A stretch of 21,812 bases of DNA, from positions 1 through 21,812 of the IMG/VR virus record IMGVR_UViG_3300032607_000978; one strand, given 5' to 3'. Position numbers and translations under genes: made by a program. Position 1 is the first letter of the stretch. Every line of letters starts with the position of its first letter. The notes under the pieces were generated by a model. The model saw only the letters and a program-made list of their open reading frames with translations, was not told the DNA's origin and made no database searches. Below are positions 1 through 21,812 of the stretch, in pieces. Origin of the DNA: a virus.

Positions 1-264
1 ACCCTGAACACCCTGTGCACCAGAACCAGTTGCTCCTTGAATACCTTGTGTACCAGTAGCACCCTGAGCACCATGTGCTCCTTGAATACCTTGAGCTCCT
101 TGTGCACCAGTAGCTCCTTGAACCCCTTGCGCACCTGAACCAGTTGCTCCTTGAATACCTTGTACGCCAGTAGCCCCTTGAACCCCTTGAACCCCTTGAG
201 CACCAGAACCAGTTGCTCCTTGGATACCTTGTGCACCCTGAGCACCCTGAACACCCTGAACACC
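1..264 (-). repeat. Collagen-type Gly-X-Y coding repeat
   Basis: Degenerate tandem 9-base units encode Gly-X-Y triplets. Longer units of about 36-60 bases, built around the peptide [15 protein letters not shown], recur three times. The repeat is translated without interruption, so it is a protein repeat rather than a CRISPR or satellite array. Such tracts are prone to slippage and to assembly collapse. Confidence 0.85.
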
Positions 265-357
265 ACTTGTAACAGAAATTGAATATTCACTGCGACTCGA
301 TATTGAACCAATAGAAGCGTTCTGACCAGATTCTAGGGTTGTTGTCAGAATAGTCAT
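1..357 (-). CDS. Collagen-like fibre protein (3' end outside window)
   Basis: The reading frame starts with ATG at 357 and stays open to the window edge, giving 119 residues of a longer protein. Residues 1-31 are a non-repetitive Ser/Thr-rich head. From Gly32 on the chain is collagen-like Gly-X-Y, with units such as GVQ, GIQ, GAQ and GAT. A two-residue slip (GAT-GS-GAQ) recurs three times, so the triplet register is interrupted periodically. Phage proteins of this type usually form trimeric tail or capsid fibres; the receptor-binding or C-terminal domain would lie outside the window. The start overlaps the stop of the next gene upstream as TAATG, suggesting translational coupling. I infer a fibre or appendage protein; the exact virion location is unknown. 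Confidence 0.85.
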
Positions 358-8496: not shown

Positions 8497-9102
8497 TTAT
8501 GCCATTACCTTATATCTAAAATCATAACCTTTGACGGATTTTTGCCTACCACTTAAACAGTTTGCAATGTCACCCTGTCTAATATTAAAGTACTGAGCTG
8601 CTTCTGTTTGAGAGTTGAATTCCATACTCCGTGTTATTTCAACAATTGGAGTTCTAGTGGCCGCAGGTTTGCCCCGACGTGACTTTCCTGGATCACCACT
8701 AGCAATTTTTACAGATACTTCCTCAGCAGAGTAATAATACGTCCAATGTCGTCTAGTCCCGTCATTATATCCTTGTTTTATTCTTTTTGAGTGTTGATTC
8801 TTTTTTTCCTCAGACCAAGCAGGCAGTGGCACACCAACTCTGTCATTAACAGGAGGTCTAATACCACCTTTGTTTATATTCCAACCAACCTTTGAAACTG
8901 GTCTTAGAGTCTCTTCATAAGCATAAGCTTCCTCTTCACGTTCAAAAGATTGTATAATGTCAACTACAAACTCTTCTTTACAAAACCATTTTTCACGTTT
9001 ATGGTCTTGTAAACGAATCTTTAAGTTTTTAGTAACACCAACATATCCTTGTGTATCAGGATCAGTATGGTCTGTTTTATGTATCCAATAGACTACTACC
9101 AT
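8497..9102 (-). CDS. GIY-YIG homing endonuclease with NUMOD-type C-terminus
   Basis: The 201-residue protein is read from ATG 9102, nine bases after a GGAG; an upstream TTG at 9111 is less likely. A GIY-YIG nuclease domain is recognisable: VVYWIHK and QGYVGVTKN for the two core strands, R-LQDHKR with the catalytic Arg, and AYAYEETLRP with the metal-binding Glu. WNINKGG follows. The C-terminal part (EFNSQTEAAQYFNIRQGDI, then LSGRQKSVKGYDFRY) looks like a NUMOD1-type DNA-binding repeat. Its start overlaps the last codons of the 88-aa gene, as expected for a free-standing endonuclease inserted between late genes. It probably cuts related phage genomes lacking it near this junction. Confidence 0.88.
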   Translation of the reverse strand: MVVVYWIHKTDHTDPDTQGYVGVTKNLKIRLQDHKREKWFCKEEFVVDIIQSFEREEEAYAYEETLRPVSKVGWNINKGGIRPPVNDRVGVPLPAWSEEKKNQHSKRIKQGYNDGTRRHWTYYYSAEEVSVKIASGDPGKSRRGKPAATRTPIVEITRSMEFNSQTEAAQYFNIRQGDIANCLSGRQKSVKGYDFRYKVMA

Positions 9103-9362
9103 GCTTGACAACTCCAGTAACGCGGCATGGTCTTAGGACCAGGATCATCGCAATTGTGTCTTGCTCTGAAACTACGGCGTCTTGCAGGAATGTTTTTCTT
9201 GATAGTCATATTTTTGTCGCCAAAGTTAACTTTAACAACGTTACCAGAATCATTCTTAACAAACACCTTGGACTTCTTTACATCACCTGCCATTGGTTTA
9301 TTAAGGGAAACAGTTTGTCCCTGATAATCAGCTTCGGCAATAAATTGTAAGAAACTTAACAT
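9096..9362 (-). CDS. Small conserved basic protein with capsid-targeting-like N-terminus
   Basis: This 88-residue protein belongs to a family I recognise from T4-like marine phages. It has VSLNKPMAGDVKKSKVFVKN, VVKVNFGDKNMTIKKN, then IPARRRSFRARHNCDDPG and a C-terminal PRYWSCQAW. It starts MLSFLQFIAE-ADY, very close to the T4 capsid-targeting sequence with an I-A-E cleavage site at residue 10. The rest is Arg/Lys-rich with two Cys and one His near the C-terminus, suggesting nucleic-acid or metal binding. It overlaps the 418-aa gene by seven bases and the downstream endonuclease by seven. I infer an internal head protein. Confidence 0.8.
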   Translation of the reverse strand: MLSFLQFIAEADYQGQTVSLNKPMAGDVKKSKVFVKNDSGNVVKVNFGDKNMTIKKNIPARRRSFRARHNCDDPGPKTMPRYWSCQAW

Positions 9363-15882: not shown

Positions 15883-17248
15883 CTTTGAACTTACCTTTTT
15901 CTGATTTGATTCTTATGCCGGAATCTGATTTGTCGAACACAGGACCGTCATCAACTATATCATTCTGCGCACTCTGTTCCACATCATACAGCTTCATCTT
16001 GGGTCTGTCAACTCCAATCACAAAACGTCTATGTACTCCTGGATCATTGTACCTGTTCTTCAATTGCTTAACCATCATTTGATTCAAGTCTTGTAATTCT
16101 TCAGAACTTATCAATGCAATCATAAAGTCAGCAGTCGCCGGCAAACCAAACGATTCACTAGTATCTTCTAATCCCAAATCACTGCTTGTGAAACCACTTC
16201 TAGTAGTCTGAGTAGCTGTAACAATAGGCACATCAAACTCAACAGCAAGACCTCTTAATTCCTCTGCAATTGCTTTGATGTAGGTGTAAGAGTTTACATT
16301 CGCACCGTACTTTAATCTTGAAGAGCTGCAGATATTTAGGTAATCGATGTATATAATATTTGGATGAAAGTTTCTCTTCAACTTTAATTCATTGAGCAAG
16401 TGTCTCATATGTCCAGCACCAGCAGATGCTGTTGGATACTCTTTAATAATCAGCTTACCATTAGTCTTCTCTTGCACACGTTCAATCTTCTTATCGTATG
16501 ACTCGCGTGGAAGAATTGTTAGCTCATCCAATGGTACATTAAGTAGGTTAGCATCAATACGTTCAGCAATCCTCTCTTCAGCCATCTCTAACGTAATGTA
16601 TAAAACATTTAGTCCAGCGGAAAGATTAGCAGAAGCACAGTGGCACATGAATAGAGATTTCCCAACTCCAGTTCCTGCTAAAATCACATTCAGCGTCTTG
16701 TTAGGTAATCCACCTTTTGTAATCTTGTTAAGATAGTCTAGATCAAAAGGCACTCTTGTTTCTCTTCTGTGATAGAAGTCATAACGAGAGGCAGAATCCT
16801 CAAGGAAGTCATGTCCAATATGAGAATCAAATGAGACTGCAAGAGCATCAGATAATATTTGAGGAATGGCACCTTTGCCAACCTTCTCTTTATCACTATC
16901 GAGAATCTGAATCGATTTCATGATAGCATTATAGATTGCCTTATCTTGACAGAACTTCTCAGTCTGATCAACTAACCAATCCATATTATCATTTGGTTGT
17001 TGTTCTAATTCGTTTATAAGAACAACCACCTCATCATAGTAGCTTGAAATCTCTTTGTTACTATCAAGTTCAATTGTCAAAGCTTCCTTGTTTGGAAACT
17101 TATTATATGTCTTTACAAACGTGTCTATCCCGTCATAGAGAGCTTTAACAGATCTCTCAACAAAGTACTCACTCTTTAGAAAGGGAATGGCCTTACGGCC
17201 ATACTCCTCATTCGAAAGAAGGTTCGATAAAATTAACTTCTCAATCAT
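15860..17248 (-). CDS. 41: Replicative DNA helicase gp41 (DnaB family)
   Basis: The start is placed at ATG 17248 because [20 protein letters not shown] matches the usual N-terminus of phage gp41; an upstream GTG at 17281 is less likely. The 462-residue product has an N-terminal helical domain. It is followed by the RecA-type core: AGTGVGKS (191-198, Walker A), [22 protein letters not shown] (297-304, Walker B), TATQTTR (344-350), and [11 protein letters not shown] before a C-terminal strand. It is a hexameric 5'-3' helicase that loads gp61 primase and unwinds DNA ahead of gp43. It lies downstream of uvsX, overlapping it by eight bases, as is usual in T4-like phages. The C-terminus is charged and ends DAFNSFS. 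Confidence 0.95.
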
Positions 17249-17717
17249 TAACAGTTCCGTAACTAAATTCTTTCTTAGCACACTCTTCTAAACGAGTCAG
17301 CACCTCTTCAGTGAAGTATAACTCTGGGTTAGTATTAATCTCTTTGCCATACATCTTACGACCATCAGGTAACTCGTACCGTGTGGATACCTTTTTCATT
17401 ATCTCATACTTCTCAGCAAGCTCTAGTAATCCAAAGTAACGATCTAAACCTTTGTTGTAAGTAAGTAACACAGTTGCTTCTTGGTTTTCTTTGGATAGTC
17501 TTGATTTGAAGGTTTTGATCTTGATTTGACTTCCAATGATTTCTCCGTCCCCGTCTTTCTCTTTTTTCTTGGAGAGCATAGCAATAGTGCTTGCGGCATA
17601 CTTGAGACCTGAGTTGTGTGTGACGACCCCGTTTTCGAGGATGTAGTGGTGCTGGTCATCAACCGTGATATCGTAAACTCGCTCATTATCAACCTTCTTG
17701 ATGTAAGATATATTCAT
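17241..17717 (-). CDS. uvsX: UvsX C-terminal half preceded by C-intein (fractured gene)
   Basis: The start is ATG 17717 with GAGG before it; an earlier TTG at 17729 adds four residues and is unlikely. Residues 1-35 are a C-intein: [20 protein letters not shown] (block F) followed by THN (block G), with Asn35 at the splice end. The C-extein begins Ser36 ([13 protein letters not shown]) and gives the last 123 residues of UvsX, including [20 protein letters not shown]. Protein trans-splicing with the N-half would rebuild a 341-residue recombinase. The gene overlaps the endonuclease upstream by 29 bases and gp41 downstream by 8, so it is probably translated by coupling. Without splicing neither half has the complete ATPase and DNA-binding core. 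Confidence 0.92.
17613..17717 (-). other. C-intein (35 residues) of split UvsX intein
   Basis: This segment contains Hint blocks F and G. The [12 protein letters not shown] motif has the block F His residues, and VVTHN ends with the conserved His34-Asn35 pair, followed by the Ser+1 nucleophile. The length agrees with other naturally split phage-type inteins (about 35-40 residues). Confidence 0.92.
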
Positions 17718-18402
17718 TAATAACCTCAATACTTTCTATTTCATATTTTTTAAAAAGATGAGTGCGCTTTCGGGTTACTAAACTAGCACCGAGACTTGCA
17801 CTCATACCCAGCAGGGGACCCAACTCCAATCTATTTCTCATCGTAACTTCTTTTCCGCATTCAAATTTAACCTTTATTGGTTTAGATCTAAACTCACTTA
17901 TTTTTTGTTTAGCATCGTGACTATGTTTCTTACCGTAAAAGGTATTCTGCAACCCGAATCTATGACATATGAGCCATTCTGGCCTTCCTAAAGCATACCC
18001 CTTTATTGTAAACAAATCAACTTCTTCTGGAGTAACAAAAACAACATCGCGATCCAAATACATCATTTTCTTACCCCAGCTATTATTCTTTTCACCAGGC
18101 GCTGAGTAAAAGGCTCTAATCGATCTGTTTCTTGAAAGATTCATAAACCTTGGATTCGAATCAACGTTAAATTTTTCATGTAAAAAACACTCATAAGCCA
18201 TTGCATCTACCCTTGTAGAAAACAATTTCAATACTTTAAATTTGAAATTATCAATACCGTATGTTTTTATGTATTGGTGAACGACTCGCGAGCTAGACCT
18301 GTATACTACAATATCTAACTTGGGCTCAATTTTTGAAGAACGAACTCCATAGTAATGTTGATTGGTTGACCTGCACGATATCCTATAAACGTAATGGTAC
18401 AT
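17689..18402 (-). CDS. Free-standing GIY-YIG homing endonuclease between the uvsX halves
   Basis: The 237-residue protein starts at ATG 18402 behind the strongest ribosome binding site seen in the window (AAGGAGG). [11 protein letters not shown] and HYYGVRSS form the GIY-YIG core strands. Ser/Arg-rich [15 protein letters not shown] and [13 protein letters not shown] (with the catalytic Glu) complete the domain. [18 protein letters not shown] is a NUMOD3 DNA-binding motif. A C-terminal helix-turn-helix-like segment ([15 protein letters not shown]) may contact the target. It lies exactly where an endonuclease domain is embedded in a standard intein, but as a separate gene. It probably cuts unoccupied uvsX genes and spreads the fractured allele. 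A late promoter sits 17 bases upstream. Confidence 0.92.
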
Positions 18403-18418
18403 AATACCTCCTTACGTT

Positions 18419-18426
18419 TATTTATA
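18419..18426 (-). promoter_or_regulatory. T4-type late promoter (TATAAATA) of the endonuclease
   Basis: An exact TATAAATA lies in the 35-base space between the end of the N-half and ATG 18402. It is flanked by TACGT/ACGTA inverted copies. It would also transcribe the C-half of uvsX and gp41 late. Confidence 0.8.
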
Positions 18427-18437
18427 AAATACGTATC

Positions 18438-19361
18438 TTAGACTTGTTCTACCCTTGGTAAAATTGCATTCTCAATCATCTCCTTAACCGAGACCCATGA
18501 GCCATCTGATAAGAATTTATGATCTGCACTACATCTAACTGTTGTTCCGTCTTCAAAACCTATTTCATATACATCTTTATCATCAAAAACGAATGTATTG
18601 GTTACCTTACGAGGGCCTTCGAGTGTTAATACCTCATCTCCTACTCTCACATCTTCTATATTTACATTGCCGGCGCTTGTTTGAATTTTAGTACCTGCGA
18701 CAAGGCATCCGCCTGATATCTCTTTTGTCGGAACATATGAACCTACTACCTCATAAACATGGTTTGTGACAAGCATCGGTACTTTCACCTTTGCCAACTT
18801 CAATGTCAGAACACGGAACGCAGCCTTAATTACTTGCGACTTCGTCATGTCTCTGACATCCTTTCCTTCTAAAGAATCTTCCATCTCTTTAGAAGTAGAA
18901 AGCAATCCCAGGCTATCAAGAACAAACATCATAGGTGGACGTTGGTCTGCTGGTTGTTTCTCATATGCTTCAATTAGTTTAAGAGCATGAGTCTTAAACT
19001 TCTGAATAGTATCTGGTTCTGCAATAATGACACGAGCTGTATCAATACCACGTGACTCCATCATCTGTCTTGTTACTGCTGCCTCTGTGTCGTAGTAGAC
19101 GACTGCTCCTGTTGGGTTCTTGTCAAGGAAGGCTCTAACGATACCAAGAACGAAGAAAGTTTTACCAGTAGCGGACTCTCCTGCAAAAGCAGTAATCTTG
19201 TTATCAGGTATGCCACCATAGAGGCTACCAGAGAGAAGAGCGTTGAGAATGTAGCTGCCAGTATCAATATAACCACCATACTCAGAACTAGCAGTGCCGT
19301 CAGAGGCCAAGTAAGTATTCTCATCATTTAATTCCTTTAACAGACTTTTCAAAAAACTCAT
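18438..19361 (-). CDS. uvsX: UvsX N-terminal half followed by N-intein (fractured gene)
   Basis: ATG 19361 is preferred (AAGGGAG five bases upstream) over a GTG three bases earlier. The 307-residue product has a UvsX N-terminus (SFLKSLLKELNDENTYLASD, then YIDTGSYILNALLSGSLYGG). The Walker A motif GESATGKT is at 61-68 and Walker B PMMFVLDSLG is near 143-152. The exteinic part ends EISGG at residue 218, at the conserved DNA-binding loop. The intein begins Cys219 with CLVAGTKIQTSAG (block A) and VRCSADHKF (block B, His281), then stops at RVEQV. UvsX is the phage RecA homologue that drives strand exchange in recombination-dependent replication and repair. It starts in overlap with the stop of the membrane/coiled-coil gene. 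Confidence 0.94.
   Translation of the reverse strand: MSFLKSLLKELNDENTYLASDGTASSEYGGYIDTGSYILNALLSGSLYGGIPDNKITAFAGESATGKTFFVLGIVRAFLDKNPTGAVVYYDTEAAVTRQMMESRGIDTARVIIAEPDTIQKFKTHALKLIEAYEKQPADQRPPMMFVLDSLGLLSTSKEMEDSLEGKDVRDMTKSQVIKAAFRVLTLKLAKVKVPMLVTNHVYEVVGSYVPTKEISGGCLVAGTKIQTSAGNVNIEDVRVGDEVLTLEGPRKVTNTFVFDDKDVYEIGFEDGTTVRCSADHKFLSDGSWVSVKEMIENAILPRVEQV
18441..18707 (-). other. N-intein (89 residues) of split UvsX intein
   Basis: The Hint domain N-half starts at the Cys codon 18707-18705. Blocks A (CLVAGTKIQT) and B (T-V-R-C-S-A-D-H) are clear, and VGDEVLTLEGPRKVTNTFVF lies between them. It ends naturally at a TAA, where a contiguous intein would continue to its endonuclease. Confidence 0.92.
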
Positions 19362-20245
19362 CACATCTCCCTTATTTGATCTTTATCAATCATGATTGTA
19401 CCACCTCTAATCTTACCAGTCAACTCTTTGAGTAACCTAGCACGTGATTCAATCTCTTCTTGTGTGTCTGGTTGCTCTTCTATTTGTGGTTCTTCAATCT
19501 TTGTCTTACTGAGTCCAATGTTTGCAGCAATCAATAAAATAATTGCTAACGGATCAAATACAATAACAATAAGAATGATTACCCAACGAACGGTCTTGTC
19601 TAAGAATTGAGAGTCGACTTTGTCGTAAAATAACTCTGCAATGAACTTGAGCGGTCCAACTTCTGCTTCTACTTTTCTGACCTGTACTGCGAGTGGTGCA
19701 CGATCTTCATTAAGTTTACTAATTGTTTTCTGGTAGGTTTGGATTTCCTCTTGTAACCTAACACGGTCTTTTTGTTGTGTACGACGAACCACCACTGCTT
19801 TTTCCGCACCTTTTTCTGTATCACTGCGGCCCATGATCTGGTCCACAGCCTCATCGTATTGTTTAAGTGCTTTGCGGTTTGCATCTATATTCTCCCTTGC
19901 TACTTTAATCTTTTCATCATATATTGCTAACTGAGCTACCACATCGCTAGAAGAGGTTGTCTGGTCAATATGTGCTTTTGAAAGGTATCCAAATGTTCCC
20001 ATCGACGTAATAAACATTAGGGTAATTATTGATGCAATCAGATATACTTTAATAGAGAACGGTGCAATGTTCCAATTACGATATGTCCAAGAAGCAGCAA
20101 CAACCTTTGCTACTTCAAGAGTACCACCCATAATAACAACAGGCCAGAATGAAGCTGCAAATATAGTTGTAAGACCAATAACAGAAAAGTAAGCAGCGAT
20201 GGCTGACAAGCCAATAGCAACCAACAAAGCAAGGTAGTTAATCAT
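19361..20245 (-). CDS. Membrane protein with central coiled coil (conserved in marine T4-like phages)
   Basis: The 294-residue protein has three hydrophobic segments near the N-terminus (about 2-24, 28-49 and 66-88), the second containing PVVIMGGTLEVAKVVAASW. A charged coiled-coil region follows, about residues 105-195 (KIKVARENIDANRKALKQYD and neighbours). A fourth membrane segment near 222-246 includes VIVFDPLAIILLIAANIGL, before an acidic Glu-rich tail. I recognise this organisation from a family encoded near uvsX in many marine myoviruses, but know no function. The coiled coil probably faces the periplasm or cytoplasm as a single block. Possible roles are membrane anchoring of the replisome or superinfection exclusion; neither is shown. 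Confidence 0.82.
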   Translation of the reverse strand: MINYLALLVAIGLSAIAAYFSVIGLTTIFAASFWPVVIMGGTLEVAKVVAASWTYRNWNIAPFSIKVYLIASIITLMFITSMGTFGYLSKAHIDQTTSSSDVVAQLAIYDEKIKVARENIDANRKALKQYDEAVDQIMGRSDTEKGAEKAVVVRRTQQKDRVRLQEEIQTYQKTISKLNEDRAPLAVQVRKVEAEVGPLKFIAELFYDKVDSQFLDKTVRWVIILIVIVFDPLAIILLIAANIGLSKTKIEEPQIEEQPDTQEEIESRARLLKELTGKIRGGTIMIDKDQIREM

Positions 20246-20548: not shown

Positions 20549-21475
20549 CTATTCAAAGAATTGTTCTAGTGTTTGTCTACGGTCTTTAATCTGCCAACCA
20601 ACCGCATCAAGAATTGACTTGATTGGTTCTAAGAATGATTTATCAAACTGTCTCTCATAATCAACATATTGAAGAATATCTAACTGCTTTGGTAATTCAC
20701 CAGGTACAGATATAACAGAATCACGAGCTGGGTTTGGAGTTCTTAGATAAGCAAATTTAATCTTATCTCCATCACGAATGATAGGATACTTTGTATCTAT
20801 CTTATGCTCTCTTAGCAGTGCATTGTATATCAGAGAACCCTTGACGTGAATAGGAGTAGACTTTCTATAGATTGAAGAAGCGTCTTGGTACTTTTTTAAG
20901 TCTCTTACACTTCTTGGAAAGGCAATCTCCTCAAAAGGCAAGGTCATAAACTCCGTCTTGAAGTCGGTAATAAACTTAACAGCAGCTTGCTCATCCTGAT
21001 TCATAATCACTTCAAGAGCTTTCTTAATGTTCTTTCTACAAGCTGCTGGCGTTGATGAGCGGACTGCTTCAATACCTTGCATCTTCAACTTAGGCTCACT
21101 ATACTCAACACCCTCGTTATTGTACACGTTCAAGATGTAATGCTTCTTACCAGTCCATATACCCTTGTTGGCAATCGCTTCACGCTTCATTACCATCTTT
21201 TGATTCATCACTTGCATGTAGTCACCAAGGCTGGCAAAAGTATCGTCAATGAAAGGTTGCAGCTTCTTCTCACATACGTTATCAAGAAACTTTACTATCT
21301 TGTGGATGTCATGTTGATCGTCTTTGAATACACCATCGACTAATCTCTCAAGTCTGATATACATCGAGTCAGTATCACATGCAATTACATAGTCTTCGTT
21401 TTCTGTCTTGAATAACTTGTTCAAGTATTCGTTAATATGCTTCTCCATCCAACGAATTGATAGCTGACCAGACAT
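20549..21475 (-). CDS. 43: DNA polymerase gp43, C-terminal part (palm and thumb)
   Basis: This 308-residue reading frame starts at ATG 21475 (GAGGG eight bases upstream). It begins SGQLSIRWMEKHINEYLN, normally internal in family B polymerases of T4-like phages. DYVIACDTDSMYI (29-40) is motif C with catalytic Asp residues. KMVMKREAIANKGIWTGKKH is the later conserved KKxY-like region, and the thumb follows. The C-terminus RRQTLEQFFE resembles a sliding-clamp-binding motif. The preceding codons (GNVYFRWYQRNLAEGIT) are intact but are cut off from motif B by a 5-base insertion. It may be translated separately or be the end of a broken gene. Confidence 0.88.
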   Translation of the reverse strand: MSGQLSIRWMEKHINEYLNKLFKTENEDYVIACDTDSMYIRLERLVDGVFKDDQHDIHKIVKFLDNVCEKKLQPFIDDTFASLGDYMQVMNQKMVMKREAIANKGIWTGKKHYILNVYNNEGVEYSEPKLKMQGIEAVRSSTPAACRKNIKKALEVIMNQDEQAAVKFITDFKTEFMTLPFEEIAFPRSVRDLKKYQDASSIYRKSTPIHVKGSLIYNALLREHKIDTKYPIIRDGDKIKFAYLRTPNPARDSVISVPGELPKQLDILQYVDYERQFDKSFLEPIKSILDAVGWQIKDRRQTLEQFFE

Positions 21476-21525
21476 AGTAATACCCTCAGCAAGGTTACGC
21501 TGGTACCACCTGAAGTAAACATTAC

Positions 21526-21663
21526 CTAACCAAGAGCGCCGTAGGCACTATTCAACTGAATTTTTTTTGCCATCTGCATATTATTGCATCTTGCAATCTC
21601 GTTGATAGTTTGCCTACGGAGCTCTTGGAGGCCCTCCATAGTTAGTTGTTTAATATCTTGCAT
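21526..21663 (-). pseudogene. 43: DNA polymerase gp43, middle fragment with motif B (45 aa)
   Basis: In frame with the upstream fragment but after a TAA at 21675-21673, the sequence from ATG 21663 reads MQDIKQLTMEGLQELRRQTI and continues to NNMQMAKKIQLNSAYGALG, then TAG at 21528-21526. This is the second fingers helix and motif B (K-x-x-x-N-S-x-Y-G) of the polymerase. After GALG the sequence GGT-TAGGT-AATG contains five extra bases compared with the expected G-N-V-Y, shifting the frame. GAAGGAG lies 13 bases before the ATG, at long spacing. It may be a decayed part, a sequencing artefact or a separately translated piece. Confidence 0.75.
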
Positions 21664-21672
21664 TTGTATTAT

Positions 21673-21812
21673 TTAACTCCTTCGCACTATTTCCTGTTCA
21701 ATCTTTTCGAGCTCCTTCTTTGCTTCGATCATCCGCTTCTTCCAAACGGTACGGTCGTTATACATATTCTCCATCAACGTAGGAAGGAACCCAACCTTAT
21801 TCTTAGTGAACA
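21673..21812 (-). CDS. 43: DNA polymerase gp43, upstream fragment (5' end outside window)
   Basis: The frame enters from the window edge and ends at TAA 21675-21673. The 45 residues seen include FTKNKVGFLPTLMENMYNDR and TVWKKRMIEAKKELEKIEQE. This is the first fingers helix of family B polymerases, with Lys/Arg residues that contact the incoming nucleotide. The stop falls in the variable loop at the fingers tip. The N-terminal and exonuclease domains would be upstream, beyond the window. A split into gp43A and gp43B is reported for some T4-related Aeromonas phages, so a real split here is possible. Confidence 0.88.
   Translation of the reverse strand, partial: FTKNKVGFLPTLMENMYNDRTVWKKRMIEAKKELEKIEQEIVRRS

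Follow-up and report, generated by a model that had tools for sequence, protein, structure and literature searches.

How does a phage obtain its DNA polymerase from a gene 43 that is interrupted twice within about 150 bases? The question is raised by one end of a viral metagenomic sequence of 21,812 nucleotides (the window, meaning the whole stretch of DNA that was analyzed). A sequence-only reading had noted a TAA at 21675-21673 and a TAGGT insertion further downstream, and had called the polymerase gene gp43 broken. Re-reading of the window sequence confirmed the coordinates of both. The gene is nevertheless unlikely to be dead, as an equivalent insert was found at the same site in 54 lineages, with purifying selection on both sides. 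We propose, with good confidence, that gene 43 harbors a mobile cassette, decayed in the window, whose endonuclease-linked insert would block cutting and would be bypassed by a short ribosomal hop.

Gene 43 is split at the fingers tip, at the site of a homing endonuclease gene

The gp43 gene of the window is divided at the variable fingers-tip loop into two ORFs. On the minus strand, the N-terminal polymerase fragment gp43A (21673-21812, truncated by the window end) finishes with ...EKIEQEIVRRS, encoded up to GTG CGA AGG AGT TAA, and gp43A of the related loci L003, L004, L007 and L037 ends at the identical point (L-numbers are labels of related viral loci or contigs). Among 80 viral contigs that encode a close relative of gp43, most carry a continuous single gene. 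A GIY-YIG endonuclease gene of 230-240 aa (Pfam SegE_GIY-YIG/GIY-YIG) lies between gp43A and gp43B in L003, L004, L007, L037, L084/L086 and L089.

The intact endonuclease of L003 ends with ...KGYKCKILNN*, and its end overlaps the gp43B start. Read in another frame, the C-terminal KG[WY]xC codons of the endonuclease supply gp43B with its ATG and with a ribosome site resembling AAAGG (e.g. L003 5813-5834), an overlap by which polymerase expression and retention of the endonuclease gene may be coupled. Only the last codons of such a gene are left in the window (21642-21668, minus strand; YKCKILNN-stop, in a frame different from that of gp43B and matching the 3' end of the L003 endonuclease gene), and we therefore conclude that the endonuclease gene was deleted there. 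On this comparison, the TAA of the window is evidently the end of a natural gp43A, at the site of the intact GIY-YIG gene of the relatives. A natural gp43A/gp43B split had been offered as one explanation of the TAA, and L003 and Aeromonas phages are indeed split alike.

Two other arrangements were observed at this split. L001 carries a different, HNH-like endonuclease ORF (1213-1767) at the same position, without a stop insert. On the L105 contig (G005, 25251-32623), gp43A and gp43B/C are separated by ~6.7 kb with other genes between them, showing that the halves can separate fully.

A short stop-bearing insert recurs at one codon position

The second ORF of the window opens at ATG 21663, in the same frame as gp43A, and comprises 45 codons (21526-21663, minus strand) that translate as MQDIKQLTMEGLQELRRQTINEIARCNNMQMAKKIQLNSAYGALG, followed by TAG. 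It is the first segment of gp43B, as judged from its sequence and its relatives, and contains motif B (KKIQLNSAYGALG). The junction reads ...GGC GCT CTT GGT TAG GT AAT GTT TAC on the minus strand. Here, GGT (21529-21531) is Gly 45 of the small ORF and the candidate take-off codon, aligned across 54 lineages. The 5-nt gap TAGGT (21524-21528) consists of an in-frame UAG (TAG 21528-21526) and GT, and the proposed landing codon GGT lies inside it (bases 21526-21524). The polymerase frame, shifted after the gap, resumes at AAT (21523-21521) and stays open to 20549; its earliest ATG, at 21475, is the possible start named in the sequence-only reading. This gp43C segment (20549-21523, minus strand) has 324 aa, starts with NVYFRWYQRNLAEGITMSGQ and contains palm motif C and the thumb.

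The window and L003 are identical in DNA over the last 30 codons of the 45-codon ORF; over the 16 codons that follow the gap, they differ by 9 synonymous and 0 non-synonymous changes. TAGGT is identical in three independent metagenome assemblies (L003, L004 and L007), with a synonymously diverged 3' side, and identical junctions were also obtained in independent assemblies for L093/L125/L128/L133 and for L113/L118/L135. Given these identical junctions, reads without the insertion and the TAA would be unlikely.

Searches for a stop behind motif B, together with endonuclease scans, yielded 57 unique junctions in 54 lineages. This lineage count is a minimum (at least 54), shared cassette ancestry inflates some of the lineage counts given here, and the presence of a stop at the site in 54/54 is given by the search design. 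All inserts are located at one codon position, after the Leu (Ile/Val) codon of YGA[LIV]^G/S/A-N, and the stop opens the insert immediately or after one Gly/Ser/Ala codon. Gaps between the take-off and the resume codon measure 4, 5, 6, 7, 8, 9, 10 and 11 nt in 3, 14, 9, 2, 7, 10, 6 and 3 lineages, respectively, covering all three frames, and 37 distinct combinations of take-off and gap sequence were found. L247 was considered as a further case and rejected, as the motif plus stop was not seen there. All insert-bearing loci are metagenomic; isolate matches carried an intron at the site or endonucleases elsewhere, and none had the short insert, so that the evidence for the inserts comes from assembled environmental sequence.

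Take-off and landing codons match across the insert

We defined the landing codon as the codon directly before the resume point. In the window, take-off and landing codons match exactly (GGT/GGT). Take-off and landing codons specify one and the same residue in 47/54 lineages (Gly in 34, Leu in 10, Ala in 2 and Ser in 1), against a permutation mean of 25.6, and none of 100,000 shuffles was as high. Counting each type of take-off and gap sequence once gave 34/37 against a permutation mean of 16.9, again with 0 of 100,000 shuffles as high. The seven mismatched lineages (Ser-Thr 4, TCC to ACC/ACT; Gly-Ser 3, GGT to AGC) differ at codon position 1, and the middle base of the two codons is the same in 37/37 types. 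Where the take-off has moved by one codon to Leu (CTT/CTG), the landing codon is Leu too, in 10/10 cases, e.g. CTG TAGCGAATCTG. The codon matching could partly reflect how the inserts arise.

The stop at the site is TAG in 40/54 lineages, although TGA and TAA were found there too; among the remaining long ORFs of these loci, 33/343 end with TAG (p = 4e-23). A recoded stop codon was rejected as an explanation, since three different stop codons are used there and the majority of gaps change the reading frame. A start was assigned to the small ORF in 50 lineages, and its length is 44-46 codons in 39 of them. About 28 residues before the take-off, a basic LR[RK]Q recurs, and it is similar in the insert-free split genes of ACG-2014f and L192. 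RNA folding of the 75 nt upstream gave a mean z-score of -1.2 (18/53 loci below -2), compared with -0.7 downstream and 0 for the spanning region. As for a conserved RNA structure that might stimulate hopping, folding z-scores among these 53 loci thus revealed a weak upstream signal only and no strongly conserved stem-loop around the gap.

The sequence after the gap is under strong constraint

For the 16 codons that follow the gap, comparison of insert-bearing loci in 21 pairs gave a pN/pS of 0.044 (146 synonymous and 26 non-synonymous differences), and constraint was weaker in the segments on either side of these codons (0.19 and 0.17). The distance from the gap to the next in-frame start ranges from 1 to 48 codons, depending on the lineage; in L111, L104, L179 and L236 it is 45-48 codons, which puts the start next to the catalytic DTDS. 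Because start positions are this inconsistent, separate initiation is not the common solution. The pattern of selection suggests that the small ORF and the downstream frame give rise to a single protein.

The sequence-only reading had expected such a phage to need gp43 and had advised a search for a second polymerase gene. No second family B polymerase (PolB) was found in 15 insert-bearing contigs, including the 178.6-kb L229, and no family A polymerase (PolA) in 10 contigs, in agreement with that expectation. L229 carries gp43A, an intact endonuclease gene and the TAGGT insert together.

Inserts accompany the endonuclease gene

An intact GIY-YIG gene is located directly upstream in about 30/54 lineages; this number includes several intact genes that were missed by the pattern scan and were counted by length. 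The remaining lineages mostly show endonuclease fragments, clean deletions or contig ends, and L122 has another GIY-YIG type. In L112, the space between the two gp43 parts is occupied by a Vsr-like endonuclease instead of a GIY-YIG one; the gap TAACTGGT is nevertheless there, which makes this a cassette with a different nuclease.

Conversely, we examined the best 80 relatives of the endonuclease. Those linked to gp43 with a readable junction all carry the insert, except five (L182, L184, L186, L188 and L192), and all five have altered target codons (YGACG, YGSLA, FGSCG, YGSIG and YGSLG). Uninterrupted genes have YGALG or YGALS in 60/67. The codons beside the insert are also distinctive: the Tyr codon is TAC in 37/43 insert-bearing versus 15/67 uninterrupted genes, and the Gly codon is GGC in 31/43 versus 7/67 (both p below 1e-10). 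Part of this synonymous recoding may be due to descent of the cassettes from a common ancestor.

In several pairs of loci, DNA identity falls at the insert, from 95-100% before it to 71-93% immediately beyond: from 100% to 82% between the window and L003, and from 100% to 73% between L092 and L103. Such a drop would be expected if conversion tracts ended at a cleavage site there. The position of the insert points to the conserved, uninterrupted motif B sequence as the probable target of the endonuclease. The insert would then confer resistance to the enzyme, and the altered targets of the five insert-free loci are consistent with this. The proposal that the insertion is an error or a random repair scar did not survive these comparisons: 54 lineages have such an insertion, with matched codons on its flanks and an endonuclease gene or its remnant ahead of it.

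Aeromonas phages carry an intron at the same site

The split gene 43 of Aeromonas phages, with 43A, a GIY-YIG endonuclease and an intron-containing 43B, was reportedly described by Petrov et al. in 2010. In our comparison, Aeromonas phages 25 and phiAS4 showed the order 43A, GIY-YIG gene, 43B, the same as in the cassette, and a group I intron directly after YGAL (Rfam RF00028, 69 bits in phiAS4); gp43 of Aes012 and 44RR is split without an interruption. Gene order, A/B split and the interruption site YGAL^GN are therefore shared with phages 25 and phiAS4, whereas their interruption is an intron removed from the RNA and the one described here is a 4-11-nt gap in the coding frame. The 5-nt gap of the window leaves no group I ribozyme at the insertion site.

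The insertion site had been described earlier as a hotspot for inteins and introns. For mobile elements this holds, given the endonuclease cassette and the Aeromonas intron, but an intein at the insert site was rejected, as no intein sequence lies between the segments. Intron, hop and target substitution seem, from these sequences, to be three answers to one kind of endonuclease.

A short ribosomal hop as the preferred explanation

In the mechanism we propose, the full cassette would have two parts: a free-standing homing endonuclease gene of the GIY-YIG family, which separates gp43A from gp43B in the variable fingers-tip loop, and a stop-bearing insert, ~135 nt downstream and right after the YGAL codons of motif B, that interrupts gp43B with a gap of 4-11 nt. 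The insert, together with the synonymous recoding of adjacent codons, would render the gene resistant to the endonuclease. In the window, the ribosome would pause at UAG after Gly45, the peptidyl-tRNA-Gly would detach from the take-off GGU, move along by 5 nt and pair again with the landing GGU, and AAU would be decoded next. The product, ...YGALG-NVYF..., would contain zero extra residues, and gp43A and the hopped gp43B/C would assemble as in Aeromonas phage 25. The window has lost the endonuclease gene and would have kept the hop. We consider hopping best supported because one mechanism covers all gaps and frames, needs matching codons and gains from a slow stop, and the alternatives are weaker because each fails on at least one of these or related points.

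Among these alternatives, a polymerase in three pieces, with gp43A, a 45-aa motif B peptide and a re-initiated gp43C that assemble non-covalently, appears improbable. It would have a precedent in Aeromonas phage 25, where gp43A and gp43B are distinct polypeptides that purify together, with polymerase activity (PMC2988022), and ATG 21475 of the window is preceded by GAGGG, with L085 having an ATG one codon past the resume point. However, of all the codons measured, those 16 that separate the gap from ATG 21475 are the most constrained, the scattered first starts provide no common site for re-initiation, and both the matched codons and the TAG enrichment would be left unexplained. Readthrough of the stop, or a conventional programmed frameshift, could restore the frame at some loci, as 6- and 9-nt gaps keep it and the stop is mostly TAG, sometimes followed by C. 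Yet no single readthrough, +1 or -1 event fits gaps that span three frames, and extra residues would be placed at the conserved motif B junction each time, which makes this reading slightly less probable still.

We regard removal of the inserts from the RNA, as remnants of group I introns that are still processed, as very unlikely. A full intron does occupy the exact site in Aeromonas phages 25 and phiAS4, but 4-11 nt are too short for a ribozyme, and RNA removal has no need for a stop followed by a matching codon. The least credible explanation is a pseudogene or an assembly error; the window is a draft contig from a metagenome and gp43 lies at its end, which would favor it, but independently assembled junctions are identical, both sides of the insert are under purifying selection in a family of 54 lineages, and no substitute polymerase was found in the contigs searched. 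Beyond the window itself, short stop-hops of this kind are likely, though with somewhat less certainty than the account of the cassette, to be a recurrent and widespread natural decoding mode of phages, at one endonuclease-linked polymerase site, perhaps with many origins, with 4-11-nt gaps and co-varying codons for Gly, Leu, Ala and Ser.

Comparison with known bypass systems

Endonuclease-linked bypassing is already known from T4 gene 60, and Bonocora et al. are said to have described this bypass with its mobA homing endonuclease cassette in 2011. As in gene 60/mobA, a homing endonuclease gene here splits an essential replication gene, an ORF of about 46 codons ends with a Gly take-off and UAG, a matched landing leads into a new frame, and the insert is proposed to shield the gene from cleavage. 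The T4 element has a 46-codon ORF1, a GGA take-off, UAG, a matched landing and an upstream endonuclease (PMC11194080, PMC5009743); the likeness in ORF length (44-46 codons here) may be coincidence. The systems differ in the gene (topoisomerase gene 39/60 in T4, gene 43 here), the endonuclease (HNH versus GIY-YIG) and the gap (50 nt versus 4-11 nt). Unlike gene 60, the elements described here have no clear take-off stem-loop, and they show many gap lengths and take-off codons for Gly, Leu, Ala and Ser.

Synthetic stop-hops in Escherichia coli used matched codons around a stop at short distance (review, PMC5009743). These are laboratory constructs, whereas GGU UAG GU in the window has the same layout and is natural. 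The same review, from 2016, expected short-distance counterparts with matched codons and knew no natural in-frame stop-hop (PMC5009743). Mitochondria of Magnusiomyces capitatus contain 81 bypass elements in many genes (PMC5009743). They resemble the elements reported here in being numerous short inserts passed by hopping, with imperfect codon matches tolerated, but they are mitochondrial and spread over many genes, whereas the present ones occupy a single site in phage gene 43 and are tied to an endonuclease.

The literature covered, which lies mostly outside subscription journals, contained no report of this gp43 arrangement. To judge from it, what is new is the gene and the endonuclease family involved, how short the gaps are, the range of take-off codons and how widely the elements occur. 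Knowledge of efficient natural bypassing in bacteria and their phages comes essentially from a single case, T4 gene 60. The present loci would, if the proposal is correct, form a large collection of naturally occurring bypass elements from viruses of bacteria: a natural series at one site, with 37 take-off and gap sequences of 4-11 nt, four take-off amino acids and uninterrupted relatives as controls. Such a series could show how ribosomes choose landing sites, and how often mobile endonucleases impose unusual decoding on essential genes. For annotators, it means that interrupted polymerase genes of this type are not to be taken as broken.

Other mobile elements and features of the window

Elsewhere in the window, uvsX/RecA is split (17241-19364, minus strand). 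Its N-terminal part ends in an intein N-half (SGG-CLVAGTKIQT...), its C-terminal part begins with an intein C-half, and a GIY-YIG endonuclease gene (17689-18402) is located between the two, the arrangement of a fractured gene with a putative split intein. Another GIY-YIG endonuclease, with an I-HmuI/NUMOD-like domain, is encoded amid structural genes (8497-9111, minus strand). At the opposite end of the window, a collagen-like protein with GAQGVQG repeats (1-357, minus strand) continues past the contig end.
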